From NCBI GenBank assembly GCA_902793435.1, contig CADBDF010000009.1:1-38732 (forward strand): DNA of 38,732 nucleotides, given 5' to 3'. Below the pieces are notes generated by a model that saw nothing but the letters and a program-made list of their open reading frames with translations, ran no database searches and had not been told where the DNA came from. Position numbers and translations under genes: made by a program. Source of the stretch: an uncultured Pseudomonadota bacterium. Its GTDB lineage: Bacteria; Pseudomonadota; Alphaproteobacteria; Rs-D84. Positions 1-38,550 of the stretch are shown here, piece after piece (position 1 is the stretch's first letter; each line of letters starts with the position of its first letter).

Positions 1-1
1 G

Positions 2-742
2 GCGGACGATTATACCGATGAAACAAATACGGAAAATTGCCCAAAATTCCGGCAATGCTTGCTGGTCGAAGATGATAATGGCACCCCGCATTGGTATTTG
101 ATAAAGGACCCTGTACGCGATTTGGTTAAATCATTGCGAGACAACAAAATCAACAGTGCCGGTGAAACCACGACGACGGCATACGCTGCAAACGGATATG
201 ATGGCACCAACGGCACAGTGGATAGTCGTTATTACAAAGGATACCCTGCAATGCGTAAATTGGCGGACGGTTCAACGTCTGTAAATACCCGTCAATTTGG
301 GGCGGCATTGACCGGTGGCGACAATGGTGGTCAATATAAAACATTATCTGACCAAGAATGGGCGGTCACATGGGACGGCAATGAAACCGGCACCGCGGGC
401 AGTTTTTTACCCGGTGTTATATATGGGACATCACGTTGTGCAAAAACAAGACCGTCATCAACGGCGGTTGGGACCGAGGGTTGGACAACAATAGAAAACA
501 GCGACCCTGTAAATGATGCCGAAAATATTCAATCGTATGTACAGTGTTATTGTAAAATGACCGGGGTCGGTATTGATGGTGAAATAACACCTGTAAAAAA
601 TTCGTCTCGGGCCCCGTGGGTCTTCAGCTACACGTACAGTTCGGCTGTCAATTGTGCGTACTACTGTGCGTACAACTGCGCGCGCTACGTCCGCGGCTAC
701 GCGTCGTTCCGTTCGGCGGTGTTGGGGTTTGCGGCAAATTGA
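2..742 (+). CDS. DGR variable target protein, 3' part (5' end outside window)
   Basis: The frame is open from the first bases of the window, so the true start lies upstream; 246 residues are visible. Residues 13-31 contain C-P-K-F-R-Q-C-L-L-V-E followed by P-H-W. The same module ends the two LamG-like proteins at 5841-7088 and 21984-22931, so the missing N-terminus may resemble theirs (signal peptide, LamG-like domain, stalk); that is inference. Residues 201-245 are the variable repeat, in which Tyr, Asn, Arg, Gly and Ser replace the Asn/Asp encoded by the template. Cysteines stand every four residues (C-A-x-x repeated three times), an unusual scaffold; I cannot assign it to the C-type lectin or the immunoglobulin class of DGR targets. 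The conserved end (S-F-R-S-A-V-L-G-F) lies just before the stop, as is usual for DGR targets. The protein is probably exported and binds a ligand at the surface. The DGR role is well supported; the ligand is unknown. Confidence 0.88.
   Translation, partial: ADDYTDETNTENCPKFRQCLLVEDDNGTPHWYLIKDPVRDLVKSLRDNKINSAGETTTTAYAANGYDGTNGTVDSRYYKGYPAMRKLADGSTSVNTRQFGAALTGGDNGGQYKTLSDQEWAVTWDGNETGTAGSFLPGVIYGTSRCAKTRPSSTAVGTEGWTTIENSDPVNDAENIQSYVQCYCKMTGVGIDGEITPVKNSSRAPWVFSYTYSSAVNCAYYCAYNCARYVRGYASFRSAVLGFAAN
602..735 (+). repeat. DGR variable repeat (VR)
   Basis: These 134 bases align without gaps to 1577-1710. They differ at 11 positions (627, 629, 635, 659, 662, 671, 683, 684, 686, 696, 698). At every one the template has A; the changes are seven A to T, three A to G and one A to C. 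The last ~37 bases and the first ~24 bases contain no template adenine and are identical. This one-directional adenine pattern is the signature of DGR mutagenic retrohoming. The repeat starts on a codon boundary and ends five bases before the stop codon. Confidence 0.97.
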
Positions 743-784
743 TACCCCCCAGAGCGTTAGCGCCGGGGGCGTAAACGGGGGGTT

Positions 785-801
785 CGGGGGCGACACCCCC
801 G
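785..801 (+). promoter_or_regulatory. Hairpin just downstream of VR, possible DGR target-site structure
   Basis: CGGGGG, a CGACA loop and CCCCCG form a strong GC hairpin about 50 bases after the end of VR. In the Bordetella phage DGR a small hairpin downstream of the VR helps target recognition. The position and shape are similar here but the spacing is longer and the loop differs, so this role is inferred. There is no T-run, which argues against a simple terminator. Confidence 0.4.
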
Positions 802-1054
802 GTGGCAGTTGATGCCAAAGGCTAAGGGTGGTGGGCAGTCGATGCCGTTGGTCGTTGTTGAATCAGTTTCCGTTGGGCAATGCAAAAAAAGGTCGCATTG
901 TTTCAACAGAATACCAAGGGTCCCATCGGGTTCGCCCGGTGGAAAGTTTAACAGTGCATTTATATAAAAAGGATAGAGGTTTTAAAGTTTTTGTTTTGCC
1001 GGGTCTTGATATAAAACAAAAATTCTTGTGATTTATAACCATTTGGGGCAGTGA

Positions 1055-1150
1055 ACAGAGTACAGAGTGCGGATAACAGAGTACAGATGATGTTATGTGG
1101 CAACGCCACATACATTAACTGAAAACTGAACTCTGGAAACTGAACACTGA
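1055..1150. repeat. Hairpin repeat family, copy R1
   Basis: A left arm of ACAGAGTACAG words is followed by GATGATG, then a hairpin (TATGTGGC 1094-1101, loop AAC, GCCACATA 1105-1112), then CATTAACTGAA and CTGAACTCTG words. The arms are roughly complementary, so the whole unit could fold into a long imperfect stem. It lies upstream of the TR. Confidence 0.75.
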
Positions 1151-1330
1151 CAAAAATTCCCCACATGGTTCAAAATTAAAATCATTGGAAAAAATGTATT
1201 TAAGGCTTTCTACAGGTAAAAAAGGTTCCATGGGATTCCCGAATCCAACTCCCGTTTTTTTAAATGACAGGACCCCATGGAACATGTGGTGCCCCCGCAC
1301 CACAAAACAGAGTGCAAATGGTACCAATAA

Positions 1331-1390
1331 TTCCCCTCCGGCGGAGGGGAGGGCCACGAAGTGGTGGGGAGGGTTCTTGGATACCCCCGC
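1331..1390. repeat. GC-rich palindromic block
   Basis: CCCCTCC (1333-1339), loop GGC, GGAGGGG (1343-1349), followed by GGCCAC...GTGGTGGGG and more G/C runs. It looks like a dispersed REP-like palindrome and contrasts sharply with the AT-rich surroundings. Only one copy was found in the window. Confidence 0.4.
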
Positions 1391-1576
1391 CACCACTCGC
1401 CAAGACGGCTCCGTGGTCCCCCTCCCCAATGGGGCGGAATTTACACTCTGGATATAAAACAGATTCGGCAAAACAAAATTCAATTCCATGGGTGAAAAAA
1501 AGCCCTTGGGATTGGCGCATTACTGGTAAAACCCCAGGTGTTCCCCGTTGGGTGCAATTGGGTGGTCGGCGTGTTC

Positions 1577-1710
1577 TCGTCTCGGGCCCCGTGGGTCTTC
1601 AACAACACGAACAGTTCGGCTGTCAATTGTGCGAACAACTGTGCGAACAACTGCGCGAACAACGTCCGCGACAACGCGTCGTTCCGTTCGGCGGTGTTGG
1701 GGTTTGCGGC
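1577..1710 (+). ncRNA. DGR template repeat (TR), transcribed as template RNA
   Basis: This 134-base stretch is the adenine-bearing partner of the VR at 602-735. Its roughly 25 adenines fall almost entirely in AAC (and one GAC) codons when read in the VR frame. AAC codons can mutate at both adenines without producing a stop codon, which is typical of DGR templates. The core contains three near-identical 12-base units (GCGAACAACTGT/C). The exact ends of the RNA and its promoter cannot be fixed by eye. The position, between target and reverse transcriptase on the same strand, is usual for DGRs. Confidence 0.95.
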
Positions 1711-1776
1711 TCCTTTGGATTATGGGTTCTGTCCATTTGTGACGGATAGAGTTTTGCCAACCTGTGGGGACAAAGC

Positions 1777-1875
1777 AGTACAGATAACAGAGTACAGATA
1801 ACAGGGTACAGATGATGTTATGTGGCTATGCCACATGCATTAACTGAAAACTGAACTCTGAAAACTGGAAAACTG
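1777..1875. repeat. Hairpin repeat family, copy R2
   Basis: The layout is the same as R1, with a central stem ATGTGGC (1820-1826), loop TAT and GCCACAT (1830-1836). It lies just after the TR, so R1 and R2 bracket the template. Confidence 0.75.
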
Positions 1876-1957
1876 TTTTTCGGGCAACCCGGTTTGCCTG
1901 TTTCGAATTGTCGCCATTTTATCAAAGGCGGAGTAATGCGACCACATATGCCAGAGG

Positions 1958-2045
1958 ACAGAGTTCAGAGTACAGAGTACAGATGATGCCGTCGGCCTGT
2001 GGCCGACACATTAACTGAACATTGAACTCTGAAAACTGAACTCTA
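1958..2045. repeat. Hairpin repeat family, copy R3
   Basis: The central stem is GTCGGCC (1991-1997), loop TGT, GGCCGAC (2001-2007). Bases 1974-2045 are identical over 72 positions to 2629-2700 (copy R4). R3 and R4 therefore bracket the avd-like gene. Confidence 0.85.
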
Positions 2046-2200
2046 ACAAAAATGCTTTCGCATTTTTTGCACTGGTAATTGAAATAAATGCACAGGAGGG
2101 ATTTGGGCTGGTAGTGTCAGTTCTGTATCGTGGCGAAGGCCCGAACCCTGAATTACAGAGTACAGATTACAGAGTACAGATTACAGAGTACGGTTTAGGC

Positions 2201-2228
2201 TTGACAATAAATTATTTTTGATTATTGT
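2201..2228 (+). promoter_or_regulatory. Likely promoter of the DGR accessory/RT genes, inside an inverted repeat
   Basis: TTGACA (2201-2206) and TATTGT (2223-2228) are 16 bases apart and about 20 bases upstream of the avd-like start. GACAATA (2203-2209) and TATTGTC (2223-2229) form an inverted repeat that overlaps both elements and could be an operator. Promoter by sequence match; operator is inference. Confidence 0.5.
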
Positions 2229-2249
2229 CCTTATAAAGTTGGGGCGATT

Positions 2250-2630
2250 ATGATAAATAAAAAAGAAACAGTAAAAGAAAAAAGCAAAAAATTTGCATTA
2301 AGAATTGTCCATTTGTATCAGTATTTAACTGATAATAAAAAAGAATTCGTTTTGTCAAAACAAATTTTGCGCAGTGGAACCAGTATCGGTGCAAATCTTG
2401 CGGAATCTACTTGTGCTGTCACTGAAAAAGATTTTTTGTCAAAAGTATATATTGCATTAAAAGAAACTGAAGAAACTTTGTATTGGTTGGATTTATTAAA
2501 AGAATCTAAATTCATAGATTCAAAAAGTCATTCAAGTATGTTTGCTGATTGTCAAGAAATAGCAAAGATGCTGACCAAAACAATTAAGACATTACGGAGC
2601 AGATTACAGAGTTCAGAGTTCAGAGTATAG
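2250..2630 (+). CDS. avd: Avd-like four-helix-bundle DGR accessory protein
   Basis: This 126-residue, helix-rich, lysine-rich protein belongs to the four-helix-bundle / S23 family (23S rRNA intervening-sequence protein type). It has the family core R-S-G-T-S-I-G-A-N-L-A-E at residues 41-52. The DGR accessory protein Avd is a member of this fold; it forms a pentameric barrel that binds the reverse transcriptase and nucleic acid and is required for cDNA synthesis. Placement between TR and RT on the same strand supports that job. The last codons (S-S-E-F-R-V) run into hairpin repeat R4, so the repeat supplies the C-terminus. The start is ATG at 2250 with a weak GGGG ribosome-binding site. Family call is firm; the DGR role rests on context. 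Confidence 0.85.
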   Translation: MINKKETVKEKSKKFALRIVHLYQYLTDNKKEFVLSKQILRSGTSIGANLAESTCAVTEKDFLSKVYIALKETEETLYWLDLLKESKFIDSKSHSSMFADCQEIAKMLTKTIKTLRSRLQSSEFRV

Positions 2631-2700
2631 AGTACAGATGATGCCGTCGGCCTGTGGCCGACACATTAACTGAACATTGAACTCTGAAAACTGAACTCTA
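2604..2700. repeat. Hairpin repeat family, copy R4
   Basis: The central stem is GTCGGCC (2646-2652), loop TGT, GGCCGAC (2656-2662). Bases 2629-2700 match R3 exactly over 72 positions. It overlaps the end of the avd-like gene and ends 20 bases before the next start codon, so it also forms part of that gene's leader. Confidence 0.85.
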
Positions 2701-2720
2701 AAAAAAAGGGGGAGAGAGAT

Positions 2721-3047
2721 ATGACACTGGACGAAATCGCTAGATTACACGCCGAGGCTTGTCCGCAATTCGCTGTGTTCGCCAAAGATAAATTGCCTTT
2801 GCCAGGGGTGAAAAAACGTTTGGACGAAATTTTAAACAAAGAAATTCTGGTCGTCGATTTCCGTATCACTAAATCAAAAAAACGCGAAGGTTCCGATTGC
2901 CTGCAAATCCAATTCGTGTGCGATAATGTCGTATGTGTCGCTTTTACCGGCAGTTCCGTTTTATCTAATCAAATCCAAGAAATTCACGACAATATACCTT
3001 TTCGAACATGTGTCACAAAAATCGATAAATATTATTCTTTTTCATGA
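2721..3047 (+). CDS. Small protein translationally coupled to the DGR reverse transcriptase
   Basis: This is a 108-residue protein. The start ATG at 2721 follows a strong purine run (GGGGGAGAGAG). The stop overlaps the RT start as ATGA (3044-3047), so the two are probably made together. I see an N-terminal helical part (residues 1-40), then a beta-rich part with F-T-G-S-S-V-L at 75-81, a P-F pair at 93-94 and a K-Y-Y-S-F-S ending. I do not recognise it with certainty. It may be a nucleic-acid-binding helper of the RT, judged only from coupling and from the small proteins known to sit beside some DGR and phage RTs. There is no signal peptide or membrane segment. C-ending codons are commoner here than in neighbouring housekeeping genes, hinting at transfer with the RT. 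Confidence 0.75.
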   Translation: MTLDEIARLHAEACPQFAVFAKDKLPLPGVKKRLDEILNKEILVVDFRITKSKKREGSDCLQIQFVCDNVVCVAFTGSSVLSNQIQEIHDNIPFRTCVTKIDKYYSFS

Positions 3048-4081
3048 AAACTGTAAATAATCTGTGGGACGTTTTTATCAGTCCTGAAAATTTTAATATC
3101 GCTGCAAAAAAAGCCATTAAAAGTAAAAAATCCAAAAAGGCGGTCGCAAAGTTTTTGGCAAATCGTGATAAATTGCTGGATAAACTGCGGCATGATATCA
3201 TCAGTGGTAATTTTAAAACGTCCGCATATGTTATTAAAACTATATATGAACCCAAAGAACGCAATATTTATGTGTTGCCACTGTATCCTGACCATATTTT
3301 GCATCATGCGCTGGTTAATGTGTTGGGGCCTATTTGGTTAAAAACTTTTGTGCGCGATTCGTTCGCGTGTATCCCAGGACGCGGACTGCATGCCGCATCA
3401 CAACGCGCAATGGATTTCGTGCGGCGAAATAAATATGTTTTACAATGCGATATTCGTAAATTTTACCCCAGTATTCGACACGATGTGATGAAACGCGTGT
3501 TGCGACGAAAAATTGCAGACCGGCGAATTCTGCGATTGCTGGACAATATTATCGATTCTTGCGGGGGTGAAAAAAATGTCCCAATTGGAAACCTGACTTC
3601 ACAATGGTTTGGAAATGTGTTCTTGAACGAATTAGACCATTTCGTCAAAGAAAAATTGTGCTGGCGCGATTATATTCGATATTGCGACGATTTCTGTTTG
3701 TTCGGTAATAATAAACGCGATTTGTGGCGCGTGCGTAAAAAAATTTTGCATTTTGTCCAAAATGAACTGATGCTGGATTTTTCACGCAGTTCCGTTTATC
3801 CGGTGTCGCGCGGATTCGATTTTATCGGCTATCGACATTTTAACGGTTTTATTTTGTTGCGAAAATCTGCCGCAAAACGTATTAAAAATTCTGTGTTGAA
3901 TATCGCCCGTTATCGTGATTTTTCTGAAAAATCTGTGGGGCAATTGGCCGCGTATCATGGGTGGATGAAATGGGCAAATTGCTGGCGGTTAAAACGAAAA
4001 ATCCAATCAACCGTCGGTCGCGAATTCGGCGGAAAAGCGTCCAGGTTTATCAAAGATAAGTTCTGGTTCGATGATTCTTGA
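3044..4081 (+). CDS. DGR reverse transcriptase
   Basis: This 345-residue RT matches the DGR family in size. Visible motifs: [10 protein letters not shown] at 135-144 (motif A, Asp136), I-G-N-L-T-S-Q at 181-187 (the DGR form of motif 4, with SQ where retroviral enzymes have SP), Y-C-D-D at 213-216 (catalytic), and G-F-D-F-I-G-Y-R about 257-264. It would copy the TR RNA into cDNA with errors opposite adenines, and the cDNA replaces the VR. It follows the coupled small gene by a 4-base overlap and ends 92 bases before rho. All catalytic residues are present, so it looks functional. Confidence 0.96.
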
Positions 4082-4173
4082 CATTTTTAATAATTTGTAT
4101 TATAATAGGGCTGTCTAAATTGATACGGGTTCTCTGTATCGTTAAAATCTTCAAATATACTAAGGATAATTTT

Positions 4174-5442
4174 ATGAATATCAATGAATTAAAGGCCAAA
4201 ACGCCACAACAGTTGTTGAAAATGGCGGAAGACATGGGGATTGAAAATCCTTCACAATTAAATGTTCAGCAATTAAGATTTGCCGTTATGCGTGTCTATG
4301 CGTTGGATAAAAATGTTGTTTTAATTGGTGATGGTGTATTGGAACGCTTGCCTGATGGGTTTGGTTTTTTGCGGGCGCCTGAAAGTAATTATTTGGCGGG
4401 GCCTGATGATTTATATGTGTCACCAAATTTAATTAAAAAGTATGGATTAAAAACCGGTGATTATGTCGAGGGTCGTATCCAGGCACCACAAAATGAATCA
4501 GAACGTTATTTTGCATTGGAAACCATTGAAAAGGTTAATGGTGATAACCCAGAAAAATTACGTCATCGTATTTCGTTTGATGATATGACGCCATTGTATC
4601 CTGATGAATTATTGCGTATGGAGGTTCCAGATGATACAGACAAAGGACGCAATTTAACCGCGCGCGTTATTGATTTGATTTCACCGACTGGTAAAGGCCA
4701 ACGTTCGTTGATTGTTGCGCCACCACGTACCGGAAAAACAATTATGTTGCAAAATATTGCTCATTCGATTGCAACAAATTATCCTGATGTTAAATTGATT
4801 GTGTTGTTGATTGACGAACGTCCCGAAGAAGTGACCGATATGCAGCGCAGTGTCAAAGGTGAGGTTATATCCAGTACTTTCGATGAACCTGCGGCGCGTC
4901 ATATCCAGGTTGCAGAAATGGTTATTGAAAAGGCAAAACGTTTGGTGGAATCTGGTCAAGATGTTGTTATTTTGTTGGATTCTATTACACGTTTGGGGCG
5001 TGCATACAATACATGTGTTCCGTCGTCTGGCAAGGTTTTAACCGGTGGTGTTGATGCGTATGCGTTACAACGTCCAAAAAGATTTTTTGGTGCCGCACGT
5101 AATATCGAAGGTGGCGGTTCGCTGACAATTATTGCAACGGCTTTGATTGATACGGGTTCCAAAATGGACGAAGTTATTTTCGAAGAATTTAAAGGAACCG
5201 GTAACAGCGAAATTATTTTGGATAGGAAATTATCTGATAAACGTATTTATCCGGCAATTGATATTACAAAATCTGGCACACGTAAAGACGATTTGTTGGT
5301 GGATAAAGAAACTTTGTCCAAAACATACGTTTTGCGTCGCGTCATTAACCCGATGGGTGTTGCCGAGGCAATGGAATTTGTGTTGGATAAATTAAGATTA
5401 ACCAAAACAAATGCAGACTTTTTTAATTCTATGAATCAATAA
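4174..5442 (+). CDS. rho: Transcription termination factor Rho
   Basis: This 422-residue ATP-dependent RNA helicase ends transcription at Rho-dependent sites. It has an N-terminal Rho domain (M-N-I-N-E-L-K...Q-L-L-K-M-A), an RNA-binding cold-shock-like domain ([16 protein letters not shown]), the Walker A region A-P-P-R-T-G-K-T, the Walker B region [10 protein letters not shown] and the Q-loop region. The start at 4174 was chosen because the family begins there and AAGGATAA precedes it; an in-frame start at 4078 would add an unrelated extension. Length is normal for the family. A strong terminator follows. Confidence 0.97.
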
Positions 5443-5840: not shown

Positions 5841-7088
5841 TTAATCTGTTGGTGCCTCTATAATCGGGAACCAGTGTGGAACAATAACACCGTTTTCTTC
5901 GGTTTCAACCAATAAACATTTTTTGCCGGCGGGGCATTGTTCGTCTGGGCGGGTTTGTTTGGTTGCCTGTAAATCTGCAATTGCCGCGGTTTGATTGATT
6001 GTGTTTGTGACGATTTCACGTATAGTCGCCACCGCATTATTTAAATCTGTTTGAACCGGACTAAACCGCGCCGCATTGTATGCGGTGGTTGCGATTTTTA
6101 TTTCCGCCGAACAGAACGGCACATAATCCGTCGCAGTGGTGCCACGTTCGATTTGTGCATGATAATCTGATGGAACGGCATTACCCATACCAATACTAGT
6201 ACCATTCCTATAAGCAATGGTCACATAACCATCAACGGCGGTAACTGTACGCGAATGTGTCGCATCAACTTGATTTACTCTATTATTCGCACCTGCTGAT
6301 ACATTACCTGGCAAAAAATATACCATTGACGTATTGGAATCATCATGTGGCATACTATATGAACAAGTGAATGTACCTTCACCAACATAAATTGCCTTGT
6401 ATTTCGGTGCGCCCGTAGGATTTGGATAAATCCCATCAAACAAATTTCGGCACTTGGCGGGACCGGCGATAAATGTGCCGGTACCTTGGTTTTCAAAGAA
6501 ATTGCCACTGACCGTATCATACATACCCAATACGCCATCACTATTGCGTTTCGCGGGAACACCATTAAAACTTAAATTATCCCCATCATACAATTTGATA
6601 GAGTAAAAGTATGCTTTAGCGTTAGTTTCAGTATTTCCGATAAGTAATTTCCCGTTACCTCTATATGGACGCGATAAATCCCGGACAACACCATTATAAC
6701 CTATAAATCTAGTTGGACTAATAGCAAAAGAGAATTTAATGTCTTTGCCAGGGTAAGGAATGCCTCCCCAAGCAACAGCCCCTGATATGCCTGAATTTAA
6801 TGTCTCTGAACTATATACTCCGACAAAAAAATCATCACTACCATTAGTTGACCCAATAAAAAAGCCTTTTAAGGTGGATACAACCTCAATCGTGGCATGC
6901 AAATCAAAATTTACCGTCAATGCTGCTTGCGTATCAATATACTGCGTTCCAGTCGTTCCTATATATTCCAACTCTGTATATCCGCTTGGCAAATTTGCGG
7001 CAAATGCGTTGGCAATTCCAAAAAATATGGCACAACAAATCACCATGATTTTTTGAAAAACACCAAAAAACACACGTTTTACAGACAT
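5841..7088 (-). CDS. LamG-like secreted surface protein 1
   Basis: This is a 415-residue protein. The start at 7088 was chosen because a signal peptide follows directly (residues 1-31, ending A-F-A-A) and GAGAGAG precedes it; the paralogue at 21984 has the same leader. Residues 33-210 look like a concanavalin/LamG fold (L-P-S-G-Y-T-E-L-E-Y-I...Q-Y-I-D-T; G-M-Y-D-T-V-S-G-N-F-F). Residues 213-326 form an extra domain absent from the paralogue, ending in a Y-H-A-Q-I-E-R-G-T-T-A-T segment seen in phage-tail and adhesion modules. Residues 330-378 look like a helical stalk. Residues 385-406 hold C-P-A-G-K-K-C-L-L-V-E...P-H-W, shared with the DGR target. It probably binds glycans at the surface. A CCTAGG-bounded segment precedes it. 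Confidence 0.8.
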   Translation of the reverse strand: MSVKRVFFGVFQKIMVICCAIFFGIANAFAANLPSGYTELEYIGTTGTQYIDTQAALTVNFDLHATIEVVSTLKGFFIGSTNGSDDFFVGVYSSETLNSGISGAVAWGGIPYPGKDIKFSFAISPTRFIGYNGVVRDLSRPYRGNGKLLIGNTETNAKAYFYSIKLYDGDNLSFNGVPAKRNSDGVLGMYDTVSGNFFENQGTGTFIAGPAKCRNLFDGIYPNPTGAPKYKAIYVGEGTFTCSYSMPHDDSNTSMVYFLPGNVSAGANNRVNQVDATHSRTVTAVDGYVTIAYRNGTSIGMGNAVPSDYHAQIERGTTATDYVPFCSAEIKIATTAYNAARFSPVQTDLNNAVATIREIVTNTINQTAAIADLQATKQTRPDEQCPAGKKCLLVETEENGVIVPHWFPIIEAPTD

Positions 7089-7155
7089 TTTCGCAACTCT
7101 CTCGACTTTATAAACTGGCGGAAATTCGCGCTTTTTCGCTATATAACAAATATAC

Positions 7156-7290
7156 AAAAAACCTAGGTTTTTTTGCGACACCCAAACGGTGATTATCGAT
7201 TTTTGATAAGTTATTGATTTTACGACAAAAGTGATTTTTAAAATTTTTGAAAAAAGTTGTTGCTTTTAAACCTAGGTTTTTTTAGACCGG
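7156..7290 (-). promoter_or_regulatory. CCTAGG-bounded segment A, putative invertible regulatory DNA
   Basis: Two palindromes centred on CCTAGG (7162-7167 and 7271-7276), each inside A- and T-runs, are 109 bp apart and lie upstream of LamG gene 1. The gene-distal edge reads GGTCTAAAAAAACCTAGG in the gene's direction, the same as segment B and the left edge of segment C. The flanks outside the segment are nearly identical to those of segment B, down to the start codon. The inner ~93 bases are related to B but more diverged. Inversion by the serine recombinase at 36198-36800 is an inference. No clear promoter could be picked out inside. Confidence 0.6.
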
Positions 7291-21788: not shown

Positions 21789-21916
21789 AAAAAAACCTAG
21801 GTTTAAAAGCAACAACTTTTTTCAAAAAAATGAAAATTCACTTTTTTTGTAAAAACAATGCGTTATTCAAAACCGCAATTCGCCAGATGTGGTGTCGAAA
21901 AAAACCTAGGTTTTTT
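21789..21916 (+). promoter_or_regulatory. CCTAGG-bounded segment B, putative invertible regulatory DNA
   Basis: CCTAGG cores at 21796-21801 and 21905-21910 are 109 bp apart, exactly as in segment A. The outer left flank (GTTGCCTAAACC then GGTCT plus a 7-A run) and the right flank to the start codon match segment A almost base for base, while the inner part is less alike. The inner part shares long words with segment C in the opposite relative orientation (for example GCGTTATTCAAAA here, TTTTGAATAACGC on the plus strand of C). Confidence 0.6.
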
Positions 21917-21983
21917 GTATATTTATTATATAGCGAAAAAGCGCGGATTTCCGCCAGTTTATAAAATCGAGAGAGTTGCGAAA

Positions 21984-22931
21984 ATGTCTGCAAAACGTGC
22001 ATTTTTTGGTATTTTTCAAAAATTAGCGGTATTTTGCTGTGCCATATTTTTTGGATTTGCCAACGCATTTTCCGCAAATTTACCAAGCGGATATACCGAG
22101 TTGGAATATATTTCAACAGAAAATGCTAGTGGACCATATATTGATACAGGATTGACCGCAGGTTCTAATACAAGAATTTTAGCACGATATAAGTTACAAA
22201 ATACTGGTTTTAACTCATCAATTTCTGCCAGAGATGAAAATGCTGCAGGTGCTGGTTTTGGTGTTGGATGTAACGGTTCTCAACAATTTATCTCTGATTA
22301 TAATGGTGATAGAAAAGTTTTTACTACGATAACCCCAAACACAACAGATATTATAACAGTAGATAAAAATAAAAATGTTTGCACCATTACTATTGGCGGA
22401 CAATCTGAAACTGTCACAAATACCGTATCAACATTTACAACAACAAATACACTACCATTTTTTGCACAAAACAGCGTTGGCACAGTGAAGGCTGGGAAAT
22501 ATGCTTTTTATTCATTTAAAATGTGGAACAACAATACCTTGGTCCGTGACCTTATCCCTGCAAAAGATTCGTCTGGTGTCGTTGGTATGTATGATACGGT
22601 TAATAATGTGTTCTATCAAAATGCGGGTACTGGAACATTTACCGCGGGACCGGTTGTTCCAGAAAACCCAATCAAAATTGCGACGACGGCGTATAACAGC
22701 GCGCGGTTTAGTCCGGTCGTAAATGATTTAAATACTACGATTGCAACTATTCGCGATATTGTGACGAATACGATAAATCAAACCGCCGCGATAGCCAGTT
22801 TGCAAGCGGACAAGCAGACCCGCCCGGAGGATGCTTGCCCCGCCGGCAAAAAATGTTTGTTGGTCGAAACCGAGGAAAACGGTGTTATTGTTCCGCATTG
22901 GTTCCCGATAATAGAGGCACCCGAAGAATAA
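21984..22931 (+). CDS. LamG-like secreted surface protein 2
   Basis: This 315-residue paralogue of the protein at 5841-7088 has a signal peptide (about 1-31), then a LamG-like domain beginning L-P-S-G-Y-T-E-L-E-Y-I and ending M-Y-D-T-V-N-N-V-F-Y. It lacks the extra domain of paralogue 1. The stalk (I-A-T-T-A-Y-N-S-A-R-F-S-P-V...) and the final C-P-A-G-K-K-C-L-L-V-E...P-H-W module (about 285-308) are nearly identical to paralogue 1. The LamG part is much more diverged than the leader, stalk and end, a pattern that fits diversifying selection or domain exchange. The start was chosen by the shared GAGAGAG site and leader. Confidence 0.8.
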   Translation: MSAKRAFFGIFQKLAVFCCAIFFGFANAFSANLPSGYTELEYISTENASGPYIDTGLTAGSNTRILARYKLQNTGFNSSISARDENAAGAGFGVGCNGSQQFISDYNGDRKVFTTITPNTTDIITVDKNKNVCTITIGGQSETVTNTVSTFTTTNTLPFFAQNSVGTVKAGKYAFYSFKMWNNNTLVRDLIPAKDSSGVVGMYDTVNNVFYQNAGTGTFTAGPVVPENPIKIATTAYNSARFSPVVNDLNTTIATIRDIVTNTINQTAAIASLQADKQTRPEDACPAGKKCLLVETEENGVIVPHWFPIIEAPEE

Positions 22932-36197: not shown

Positions 36198-36800
36198 TTA
36201 TAAAAATTCATCTGTGGTGTTTAAATATTTATATAATGTGGATTTATGAACACCCATTATGCGGGCAATTTCATTTTTACTGGTGCCGCGTGTGATTAAG
36301 TGTTGTATTCGTTTTTGATTGCGTTGTAATTTTAATTTTTTTGATAATGCGCCACGTGGGCGTCCCAATTTTTTACCATTTGCCTTTAATCGCGCCAAAC
36401 TTTCGCGGACGCGTTCTTGTAATAATTGTTTTGATAGTTCCGCAGATAACCCAAATGCAAAAGCCAAAACTTTGGATTGAATATCTGCGCCGAGTCTAAA
36501 ATTTTCTTTTAATGTCCAAACCTGACATTCTTGTTCCAGGCAATGTTGTAATATTCCCATAACTTCCAACAGACTGCGACCCAGTCTGGAAATTTCAGTT
36601 GTGATTAAAATATCACCGCCTTTTAATGTGTTTAATAAAGCCCCCAGTTTTCGTTCGCTTAATTTTTTACTGCTGGAAATTTTTTCTTCGATCCATATAT
36701 CGATGTGCAAATTGTTATTTTTAGCAAATTTTGCAATTACAAAATGTTGATTTTCTTCTGTTTGATGTTGGGTTGAAACACGACAATAACCATAAATCAT
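36198..36800 (-). CDS. Mpi/Hin-like serine site-specific DNA invertase
   Basis: This 200-residue serine recombinase has the N-terminal catalytic motif Y-C-R-V-S-T with Ser9, then E-I-S-R-L-G-R-S-L and K-V-L-A-F-A-F-G-L-S-A-E. The C-terminal helix-turn-helix reads G-T-S-K-N-E-I-A-R-I-M-G-V-H-K-S-T-L-Y. Size, motifs and wording closely recall the Bacteroides master invertase Mpi, which flips many surface-gene promoters. The start at 36800 gives the standard resolvase start M-I-Y-G-Y and follows AAGGA. Only one recombinase is visible. Segments A, B and C are candidate targets; C lies directly upstream. Confidence 0.92.
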   Translation of the reverse strand: MIYGYCRVSTQHQTEENQHFVIAKFAKNNNLHIDIWIEEKISSSKKLSERKLGALLNTLKGGDILITTEISRLGRSLLEVMGILQHCLEQECQVWTLKENFRLGADIQSKVLAFAFGLSAELSKQLLQERVRESLARLKANGKKLGRPRGALSKKLKLQRNQKRIQHLITRGTSKNEIARIMGVHKSTLYKYLNTTDEFL

Positions 36801-36866
36801 AAAAAATCCTTTTTGTGTGATAAAAAAATAGGCCCGCGTAGAAATCGCAAAAGCCTTGACTGCATT

Positions 36867-36896
36867 GATATATAATCGTTTTTTTGCCGTTGTCAA
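36867..36896 (-). promoter_or_regulatory. Promoter of the invertase gene, outside segment C
   Basis: On the minus strand TTGACA (36896-36891) is followed after 18 bases by TATATC (36872-36867), or after 17 bases by ATATAT. Both lie between segment C and the invertase start, so the invertase would be made in either orientation of C. Confidence 0.65.
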
Positions 36897-37101: not shown

Positions 37102-38550
37102 ATGAAAAAACATTTGTTTTTAACTTCTTTGGTTGCGTTGATTGCAACAGCGAGTACCGCAAATGCGACATATACAGGATATACTGGTGCAATTGATGGT
37201 GATTCGGTTAACTTTAATGGCAAGGTTGTTCATACATACACAGATAGTGATGGTAAAACACATACTGAATTGGTTGATGCCGATAAAGAAGAACCAACAT
37301 TAGCTGATTATACATGGAACAATGCTGGTGCAACTACTGCTTTGACAGAAAAAGCGATGAAATATACGACCGCTGATTTTAAAGATACCGCATCTTTTGA
37401 TGAAGGTACGGCCAAATCATTGCAAGCAGGTCAAACTTTGGATATGAACAATTATACGTATGAATACGATGACAATGAATTTGTGTTGTCTGTAGACAAA
37501 GATGGCAATTTTGTTGCAAGTGGTGTTTATACTGAATTGGTTGATGTTGCAGAAGTGTTAGAAGATGCAAGCATTGAATTGGCAAATGATGTTCATGTGT
37601 CAAGTGCAAATATTAATGTCACAAATGGAACAGCCGCAGAATATGGTGTGACGGTTGGTCAATATAACTTGGTCAAAGATGGTTCTACATTTAAATTAGA
37701 AGACCCAAGCAGACCTGGTGAAACAATTGCAATTGAAAGTGGTTCTGATTTAGAAACTTCATTTAATAATGCACAGGCGGCTTATAATGCGATTAAAGCA
37801 GTTGTGGATACAAAAGTTACATCAACCCAAGCAGATGTTGATGCAGAAGAAACAGCCGCAGCGACTGTTATGGCTGACTATGTTGCAGATGCTGGTAAAT
37901 TAGATGTGTTGAATGCAAGTTATGAATCTTTGCAAGAGGCCAAGGCAAACTTTAATCATGACAGTGTAAATTATGCAGAAGTTCAAACCGCACAAGCAAT
38001 CATGGCAAAATCAATTAAAGCAACGATTTCAGATGCCAATGAAGAAGTTCATGGTAAAATCCATGGTTTGATTACCGAAGAAAATGGTGCCAAAAAATTC
38101 AATGGTACAGGTAAAGTTGCATCAACTAGATTAGATGAAGATGGCAATTATGTTGGTGATTTGGCTGTTGGAACAACAACCGAAGAACACTTGGTTTCTT
38201 TGGATAATGCAATTGGTGCCGAAGTTGATCGTGCCAAGGCAGCAGAATCTGCTTTGCGTTCTGATTTGGCAACCACGGATGCAAAAGTCAATTCATTAGA
38301 AAAGAACGTGTCTGGTGGTGTTGCGGCGGCAACTGCGTTGTCTGCGGTCGAAGTCAGCAATGTCAAGAAAGGCGAAATGTCTGTGGGTGGCGGTTATGGT
38401 TATTATAACAGTCAATCCGCTATGGCATTGGGTGCCGCATTGGGATTGTCAGATAATTGGTCTGTTAATGCCGGTGCCGGTATTGCCAGTGGCGATAAAA
38501 CCCAGGTGTCTTTCCGCGCAGGAACAAATTATAAATTCAAATTGTTCTAA
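37102..38550 (+). CDS. YadA-like trimeric autotransporter adhesin
   Basis: This 482-residue protein has a signal peptide (1-22, ending T-A-N-A). The passenger is acidic, Ala/Thr/Asp-rich and probably coiled-coil in its second half (about 240-410). The last ~75 residues match the YadA anchor: N-V-S-G-G-V-A-A-A-T-A-L-S-A-V, G-G-G-Y-G-Y-Y, A-L-G-A-A-L-G-L-S-D-N-W-S-V-N and a terminal aromatic. Three chains would form one barrel in the outer membrane. AAAGGAAAA site before the ATG. Segment C lies about 70 bases upstream, so inversion could change its expression. Confidence 0.92.
   Translation: MKKHLFLTSLVALIATASTANATYTGYTGAIDGDSVNFNGKVVHTYTDSDGKTHTELVDADKEEPTLADYTWNNAGATTALTEKAMKYTTADFKDTASFDEGTAKSLQAGQTLDMNNYTYEYDDNEFVLSVDKDGNFVASGVYTELVDVAEVLEDASIELANDVHVSSANINVTNGTAAEYGVTVGQYNLVKDGSTFKLEDPSRPGETIAIESGSDLETSFNNAQAAYNAIKAVVDTKVTSTQADVDAEETAAATVMADYVADAGKLDVLNASYESLQEAKANFNHDSVNYAEVQTAQAIMAKSIKATISDANEEVHGKIHGLITEENGAKKFNGTGKVASTRLDEDGNYVGDLAVGTTTEEHLVSLDNAIGAEVDRAKAAESALRSDLATTDAKVNSLEKNVSGGVAAATALSAVEVSNVKKGEMSVGGGYGYYNSQSAMALGAALGLSDNWSVNAGAGIASGDKTQVSFRAGTNYKFKLF

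Follow-up and report, generated by a model that had tools for sequence, protein, structure and literature searches.

The DGR of Bordetella phage BPP-1 (mtd, avd, TR, brt) has a single target, located in cis, and encodes a four-helix accessory protein, Avd, which is essential in that system. The BPP-1 spacer recruits the RT–Avd complex and primes cDNA synthesis (PMC12875486). Multiple and remote DGR targets are already known (PMC6642488, PMC8144416), and about a quarter of DGRs have been reported to be without an accessory-gene homologue (PMC7290462). The DGRs of the archaeal virus ANMV-1 and of Caudoviricetes vir525 resemble the one described here in having a reverse transcriptase (RT) of the same kind (the vir525 RT is 44% identical) and an adjoining homologous gene for a protein with a predicted OB fold; however, they have the order RT then OB gene, as well as a viral tail-type target. 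The deposited annotation of their OB protein is "hypothetical", and the ANMV-1 paper labels an Avd ORF, while an OB fold beside the RT goes unmentioned. In the hankyphage (Bacteroides phage p00 / jmh_hp), whose RT is remote from ours on the RT tree, an OB domain is fused to the RT, and this DGR was found experimentally to be active in culture (PMC12135933).

The window analysed here is the whole of one contig, C9 (38,732 bases), from a genome of 898,232 bases in 15 contigs. We consider it quite likely that it carries a multi-target DGR of a gut alphaproteobacterium (0.9 Mb, among the relatives of Candidatus Enterousia), with RT, TR and accessory gene intact, in which a predicted OB-fold protein stands in Avd's place and a four-helix ORF of the 23S rRNA IVP family is no working part. 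In contrast to the BPP-1 DGR, the predicted OB-fold partner is encoded by a gene overlapping that of the RT, there are at least six VRs in the genome (one in cis and five in trans), and the RT belongs to a different clade. The cassette runs in the order target with VR, TR, four-helix ORF (2250–2630), 108-aa ORF (2721–3047) and RT (3044–4081), with the following features:

2–742, forward strand: DGR target gene, with its 5′ end beyond the contig (ORF open at base 2) and a C-terminal VR domain
602–735, forward strand: cis VR, with 11 differences from the TR, all at TR adenines
744–803, forward strand: G+C-rich inverted repeats that directly follow the VR and the stop of the target gene, a candidate for the post-IMH stem-loop of other DGRs
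1577–1710, forward strand: TR, source for at least six VRs in the genome (from a repeat search and a search of the genome with the TR)
1748–1775, forward strand: spacer motif AAAGTTTTGCYAACCTGYRGGGACAAAG 3′ of the TR, kept at the same place in relatives
1772–1879, forward strand: position of a short covarying hairpin beside the spacer motif (arms 1772–1778 and 1873–1879)
2721–3047, forward strand: accessory protein of 108 aa with a predicted OB fold, a conserved RT partner, with 4 bases (ATGA) shared between the end of its gene and the start of the RT gene
3044–4081, forward strand: DGR RT of 345 aa with IGNLTSQ and YCDD (from motifs, alignment and family matches)

An unbiased repeat search recovered 602–735 and 1577–1710 as a direct repeat of 134 bases with 0 gaps. 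The TR has 25 adenines, on which all 11 of the differences between the cis VR and the TR fall, with 0 differences at non-adenine positions (hypergeometric P = 1.1e-9), bearing out an earlier note on this DNA, which had claimed 11 differences in 134 bases, all at TR adenines. The DGR at 602–1710 is genuine, its TR/VR differences being confined to TR adenines. Seven A→T changes and one A→C lie at codon position 1 and three A→G changes at position 2; together they alter ten codons, all of them nonsynonymously (AAC to TAC, AGC or CGC, and GAC to GGC). The VR lies within the coding sequence and ends about two codons 5′ of the stop codon of the ORF at 2–742.

As the same note had stated, the RT is an SQ-type enzyme: when aligned with RTs of BPP-1-type and other DGRs, it shows IGNLTSQ at motif 4 (xGxxxSQ type) and YCDD at the catalytic YxDD, which is intact, within an intact 345-aa ORF. 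The match to the PHROG RT family reaches E 3e-101. A retron or defence RT was ruled out, the best family being the phage RT family PHROG 1423, in addition to the presence of TR/VR pairs. Those relatives of the RT that carry names derive from alphaproteobacterial assemblies of rumen and gut origin, Candidatus Enterousia onthequi among them. A comparison with other DGR RTs, which the earlier note had proposed, gave a tree in which the Avd-bearing RTs form one clade (99/95), and the window RT is found outside this clade, clustering with the OB-bearing alphaproteobacterial and archaeal-virus RTs (99/99). The OB and Avd systems are not cleanly split on this tree, because the ANMV-1 RT is the sister of the Avd clade. 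The tree row none_hanky carries a label that predates recognition of its OB domain.

Between the TR and the RT lies the ORF at 2250–2630, which had been taken for an Avd-like protein. Its profile matches place it in the 23S rRNA IVP four-helix family (TIGR02436, E 5e-32; PF05635, E 2e-27), a family that is not conserved with the DGR here. If this ORF were the Avd of a canonical DGR, the 108-aa ORF would be a bystander or a regulator; such a reading could draw on the position of the ORF between TR and RT, on the distant relationship of PF05635 to Avd and its frequency in DGR neighbourhoods (PMC10053308), and on weak matches to bAvd (18 of 40 bits, E 0.004) and DivGenRetAVD (15 of 80 bits, E 0.02), both below the Avd cut-offs. 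However, a profile of ten phage Avd proteins does not match the ORF at E 0.01, the ORF is missing from the sister cassette, which is collinear on both sides of it, and no RT locus examined in the remaining relatives contains it. It is also the sole PF05635 gene of the genome and is bordered by heptad repeats found elsewhere in the cassette, whereas the 108-aa ORF is almost always present. Given the absence from relatives and the lack of a match to the phage-Avd profile, we reject the ORF as Avd, and we regard the canonical arrangement as a whole as highly improbable. The earlier statement that target, TR, Avd-like protein and RT were all present and apparently intact accordingly stands for the RT and the TR, but not for the target, which is cut at the contig edge, nor for the "Avd-like" ORF, which is probably not an Avd. 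For four-helix ORFs near a DGR, position alone is insufficient to call Avd.

Since neither the sister genome nor any other relative has it, the IVP ORF is probably not a DGR part; in our reading it is a passenger, mobile or duplicated, that was recently inserted. Repeats of heptad type (CAGAGTA.../CTGAACT...), with a hairpin at the centre, occur in four blocks, at 1049–1156, 1774–1881, 1945–2052 and 2600–2707, two of which surround the IVP gene. Three of the blocks have no counterpart at the corresponding positions in the sister, and the same repeats are present in a few other genomes of the genus. The IVP gene and the heptad repeats may move together.

In 18 alphaproteobacterial relatives the 108-aa gene, which the earlier note had left unlisted, directly precedes that of the RT; in the sister it is frameshifted. 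Among 59 genomes, with the RT scored at E below 1e-50, 12 have both RT and OB gene, 1 has the RT only (at a contig edge), 2 have the OB gene only and 44 have neither (Fisher p 1e-9); the OB gene is present in 12 of the 13 RT genomes. A wider search of the phylum gave no further OB match among 398 genomes. Judging from gene order and co-occurrence, the predicted OB-fold protein, rather than the IVP ORF, is the conserved RT partner in the cassette.

The AlphaFold2 model of the 108-aa protein (pLDDT 90) shows a strand-strand-strand-helix-strand-strand arrangement over residues 35–108, and an OB fold is predicted. The model matches solved OB folds weakly but consistently, namely RuvBL domain II (Z 7.0), PriB (5.6), LEF-3 (5.5), SSB (5.2) and RPA (4.6); the OB-fold matches range from Z 4.4 to 7.0, with the best Foldseek E at 0.025, and with all Z under 8 they may reflect only the common small barrel. 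The 34 residues N-terminal to the barrel fall outside the OB-fold explanation. Searches of Pfam, NCBIfam, PADLOC, PHROGs and PDB sequences with the 108-aa protein returned nothing convincing, and TAFII28 was weakly matched (E 1e-3) in part of the family.

In both ANMV-1 and vir525, a homologue of the OB protein is encoded next to the RT (E 1e-12 and 2e-15; identity 43% and 39%, respectively); homologues also lie beside the RT in 15 IMG/VR loci, and adjacency was seen overall in 18 relatives, 17 archaeal-virus loci and 29 Bacteroides-type loci. The Bacteroides-type DGRs have an ORF of about 130 aa downstream of the RT (25 viral loci, with a DGR-like RT in 25/25), and the predicted strand order of this family is the same as that of the window OB protein, plus a C-terminal helix. 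Comparison of the Bacteroides and archaeal OB profiles gave P 1.5e-5; the reversed control, set against the pool of profiles, gave 0.13. The window OB family alone reaches the Bacteroides family at P 5e-3, and with the archaeal family at 1e-4 to 1e-5; the profile link between window and Bacteroides becomes stronger only via the hankyphage domain (about 1e-6). The window and Bacteroides OB models have the same two RT proteins as their top viral structure matches. Also among the viral structure matches is the cr7_1 RT, related to the crAssphage LMMB RT; an OB domain in the extension of the LMMB RT was considered and is unsupported by sequence.

Fused forms extend this picture. The C-terminus of the hankyphage RT matches an OB profile built without fused forms at E 5e-9, and the Alistipes-type DGRs, which have TR/VR pairs, encode RTs of 530 aa with a C-terminal domain carrying a shared YTGSKVL motif (P 9e-5). 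The hankyphage ORF labelled Avd (L147:2688-3173) matches DUF4376 (PF14301) and not Avd. Viral contigs searched with the window family's own OB peptides yielded none, but the archaeal and Bacteroides queries did match; a search of viral contigs for RT relatives, with the fused RT of L049 as query, likewise found none. The OB family was not matched in the loci of cr56, cr52, cr53, cr6, LBR48, vir215, Perkons and the Helicobacter canis phage, and neither OB nor Avd was detected by sequence in many crAss-type, LBR48-type and other DGR-like RTs.

In the loci sampled, Avd was found in 0/69 OB loci and OB in 0/10 Avd loci, and because these loci were partly picked for OB or Avd, include near-copies and are no survey, the mutual exclusivity of OB and Avd in the sample is suggestive only. 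The Avd profile recovers 9/10 of its own loci. We tentatively propose, as a view nearly as probable as its opposite, that an OB protein or RT-fused OB domain is a general substitute for Avd in many "accessory-less" DGRs of bacteria, phages and archaeal viruses, binding template RNA or nascent cDNA, and that there would be two mechanistic types of RT, one with an Avd barrel and the other with an OB partner.

A survey by Wu et al. 2018 reportedly named two new accessory genes, one of them a conserved hypothetical. The OB accessory could be the uncharacterised DGR accessory "CH1" of that survey, in which case only the fold and the RT fusions would be new; this identity is compatible with the OB mechanism, and we think it possible but rather doubtful. 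In PMC10053308, one DGR-associated protein from the Wu survey is given as having no Pfam or CDD attribution, and the OB family is likewise without one. However, where open papers deal with some of these DGRs, Avd is either described as missing or its name is given to other ORFs. Among open papers, none was found that connects the CH1 terms with the OB accessory, and none that describes an OB-fold partner of a DGR.

Because the target ORF in the window is open at base 2 and crosses the contig start, its 5′ end is absent and the completeness of the target cannot be judged; its orthologue in the sister genome has 374 aa and begins with a signal-peptide-like stretch. The C-type lectin fold is common, though not universal, for the VR domain of DGR targets. 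The target VR domain here had no sequence match in Pfam or the PDB, also when the target alignment was used for a profile search of the PDB. When the TR was searched against the genome, VRs came to light on four more contigs, C2, C3, C5 and C11, with a second, more diverged VR on C2. These lay beyond the view of the earlier note, and each of the five trans VRs is individually adenine-biased (Fisher p 1e-8 to 6e-5). The targets fall into two classes that terminate in a common VR domain: larger proteins with a signal-peptide-like start (the window family, C3, C5 and the 374-aa sister orthologue), and proteins of about 180–214 aa without an evident signal peptide (two on C2, and C11). Between signal peptide and VR, the C3 target (L005) is frameshifted by a 47-base tandem duplication and the C5 target (L004) by a deletion, which means that some of the targets are not working genes. 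These two may be pseudogenes or phase-switchable, and assembly error is possible.

Comparison with the sister genome (MAG RUG14746), which carries a collinear DGR cassette, bears on the recent history of the system. The two TRs differ only at TR positions 6 and 47 (counted from 1), both non-adenine, where T is found in the window TR and cis VR and C in the sister TR and VR; the two cis VRs diverge widely at adenines. Since TR and own cis VR co-vary at two non-adenine sites, which independent point mutation would hardly produce, the comparison supports a recent rewriting of the window cis VR, by homing after the split from the sister. The shared non-adenine states also lend support to the earlier claim that the system was recently active. 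In the trans copies, C5 has C at both positions, C11 has C at position 47 (position 6 lies outside its matched stretch), and on C2 and C3 position 6 is C and position 47 is T. With the caveat that position 6 is near the repeat edge, this pattern fits trans VRs that reflect older template generations.

The sister cassette may itself be idle, because a 28-base tandem duplication shifts the frame of its OB gene and its RT has lost 78 bases in frame (L028:5640-6957). One could suppose that the window cassette, too, was formerly active and is now idle, with the OB gene retained for some other reason. The damage in the sister would agree with this, as would the one relative (G027) that has TR-like sequence and an OB gene with no RT adjoining, the two frameshifted trans targets, and the insertions between the window TR and the OB gene. 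However, the RT and OB gene of the window are intact, and its cis VR has the newest TR states at both non-adenine sites, with no non-adenine difference. We therefore judge idleness unlikely and favour a cassette that has been homing recently. The locus of the relative mentioned above (L067) has, besides its TR-like sequence, target-like sequences and an intact OB gene.

In relatives, the motif AAAGTTTTGCYAACCTGYRGGGACAAAG is found about 40 bases 3′ of the TR and is followed by a small hairpin. A compensatory change was seen at 2/12 predicted pairs in the stretch of motif and hairpin; in the window, the hairpin loop is filled by a heptad-repeat element, with arms that, read by eye, are still able to pair. 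Rfam gave no match in 1–4200. By analogy with the BPP-1 spacer, the motif and hairpin are the likely entry site. In the mechanism we propose, RNA comprising the TR and the conserved spacer 3′ of it would be bound by the RT together with the OB protein, and cDNA would be primed near the spacer, with the RT misreading template adenines and placing random bases opposite them. The cDNA would then replace homologous VRs in cis (602–735) and on the four other contigs, and surface-located and small soluble proteins would be varied via their common VR domain. The priming and homing steps would be those of BPP-1, carried over by analogy. The OB protein would fill the role of Avd in BPP-1-type systems, most likely by binding template RNA and/or nascent cDNA; from linkage, fusion and predicted fold, we infer that it makes contact with RT and nucleic acid, binding the latter, and that cDNA synthesis or homing depends on it.

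The predicted OB-fold partner recurs in three arrangements (upstream of the RT, downstream of it, and fused to it), which would offer a common answer for accessory-less DGRs, and the hankyphage, with its fused OB domain and a DGR already active in culture, allows a direct test of such a partner. That a single template rewrites several genes means that a gut bacterium with a genome of <1 Mb invests heavily in varying its proteins.

The target belongs to a family of surface proteins, and only some of these serve as DGR targets. Two paralogues of its N-terminal part, in which the VR is absent, lie in the window at 5841–7181 (reverse strand) and 21858–22931 (forward strand), and the N-terminal paralogues show a signal peptide, GYTELEYI and ATTAYN...PHW. 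Read from the sequence, the window further contains a resolvase-type recombinase at 36198–36896 (reverse strand) and a YadA/trimeric-autotransporter-like surface protein at 37102–38550 (forward strand).
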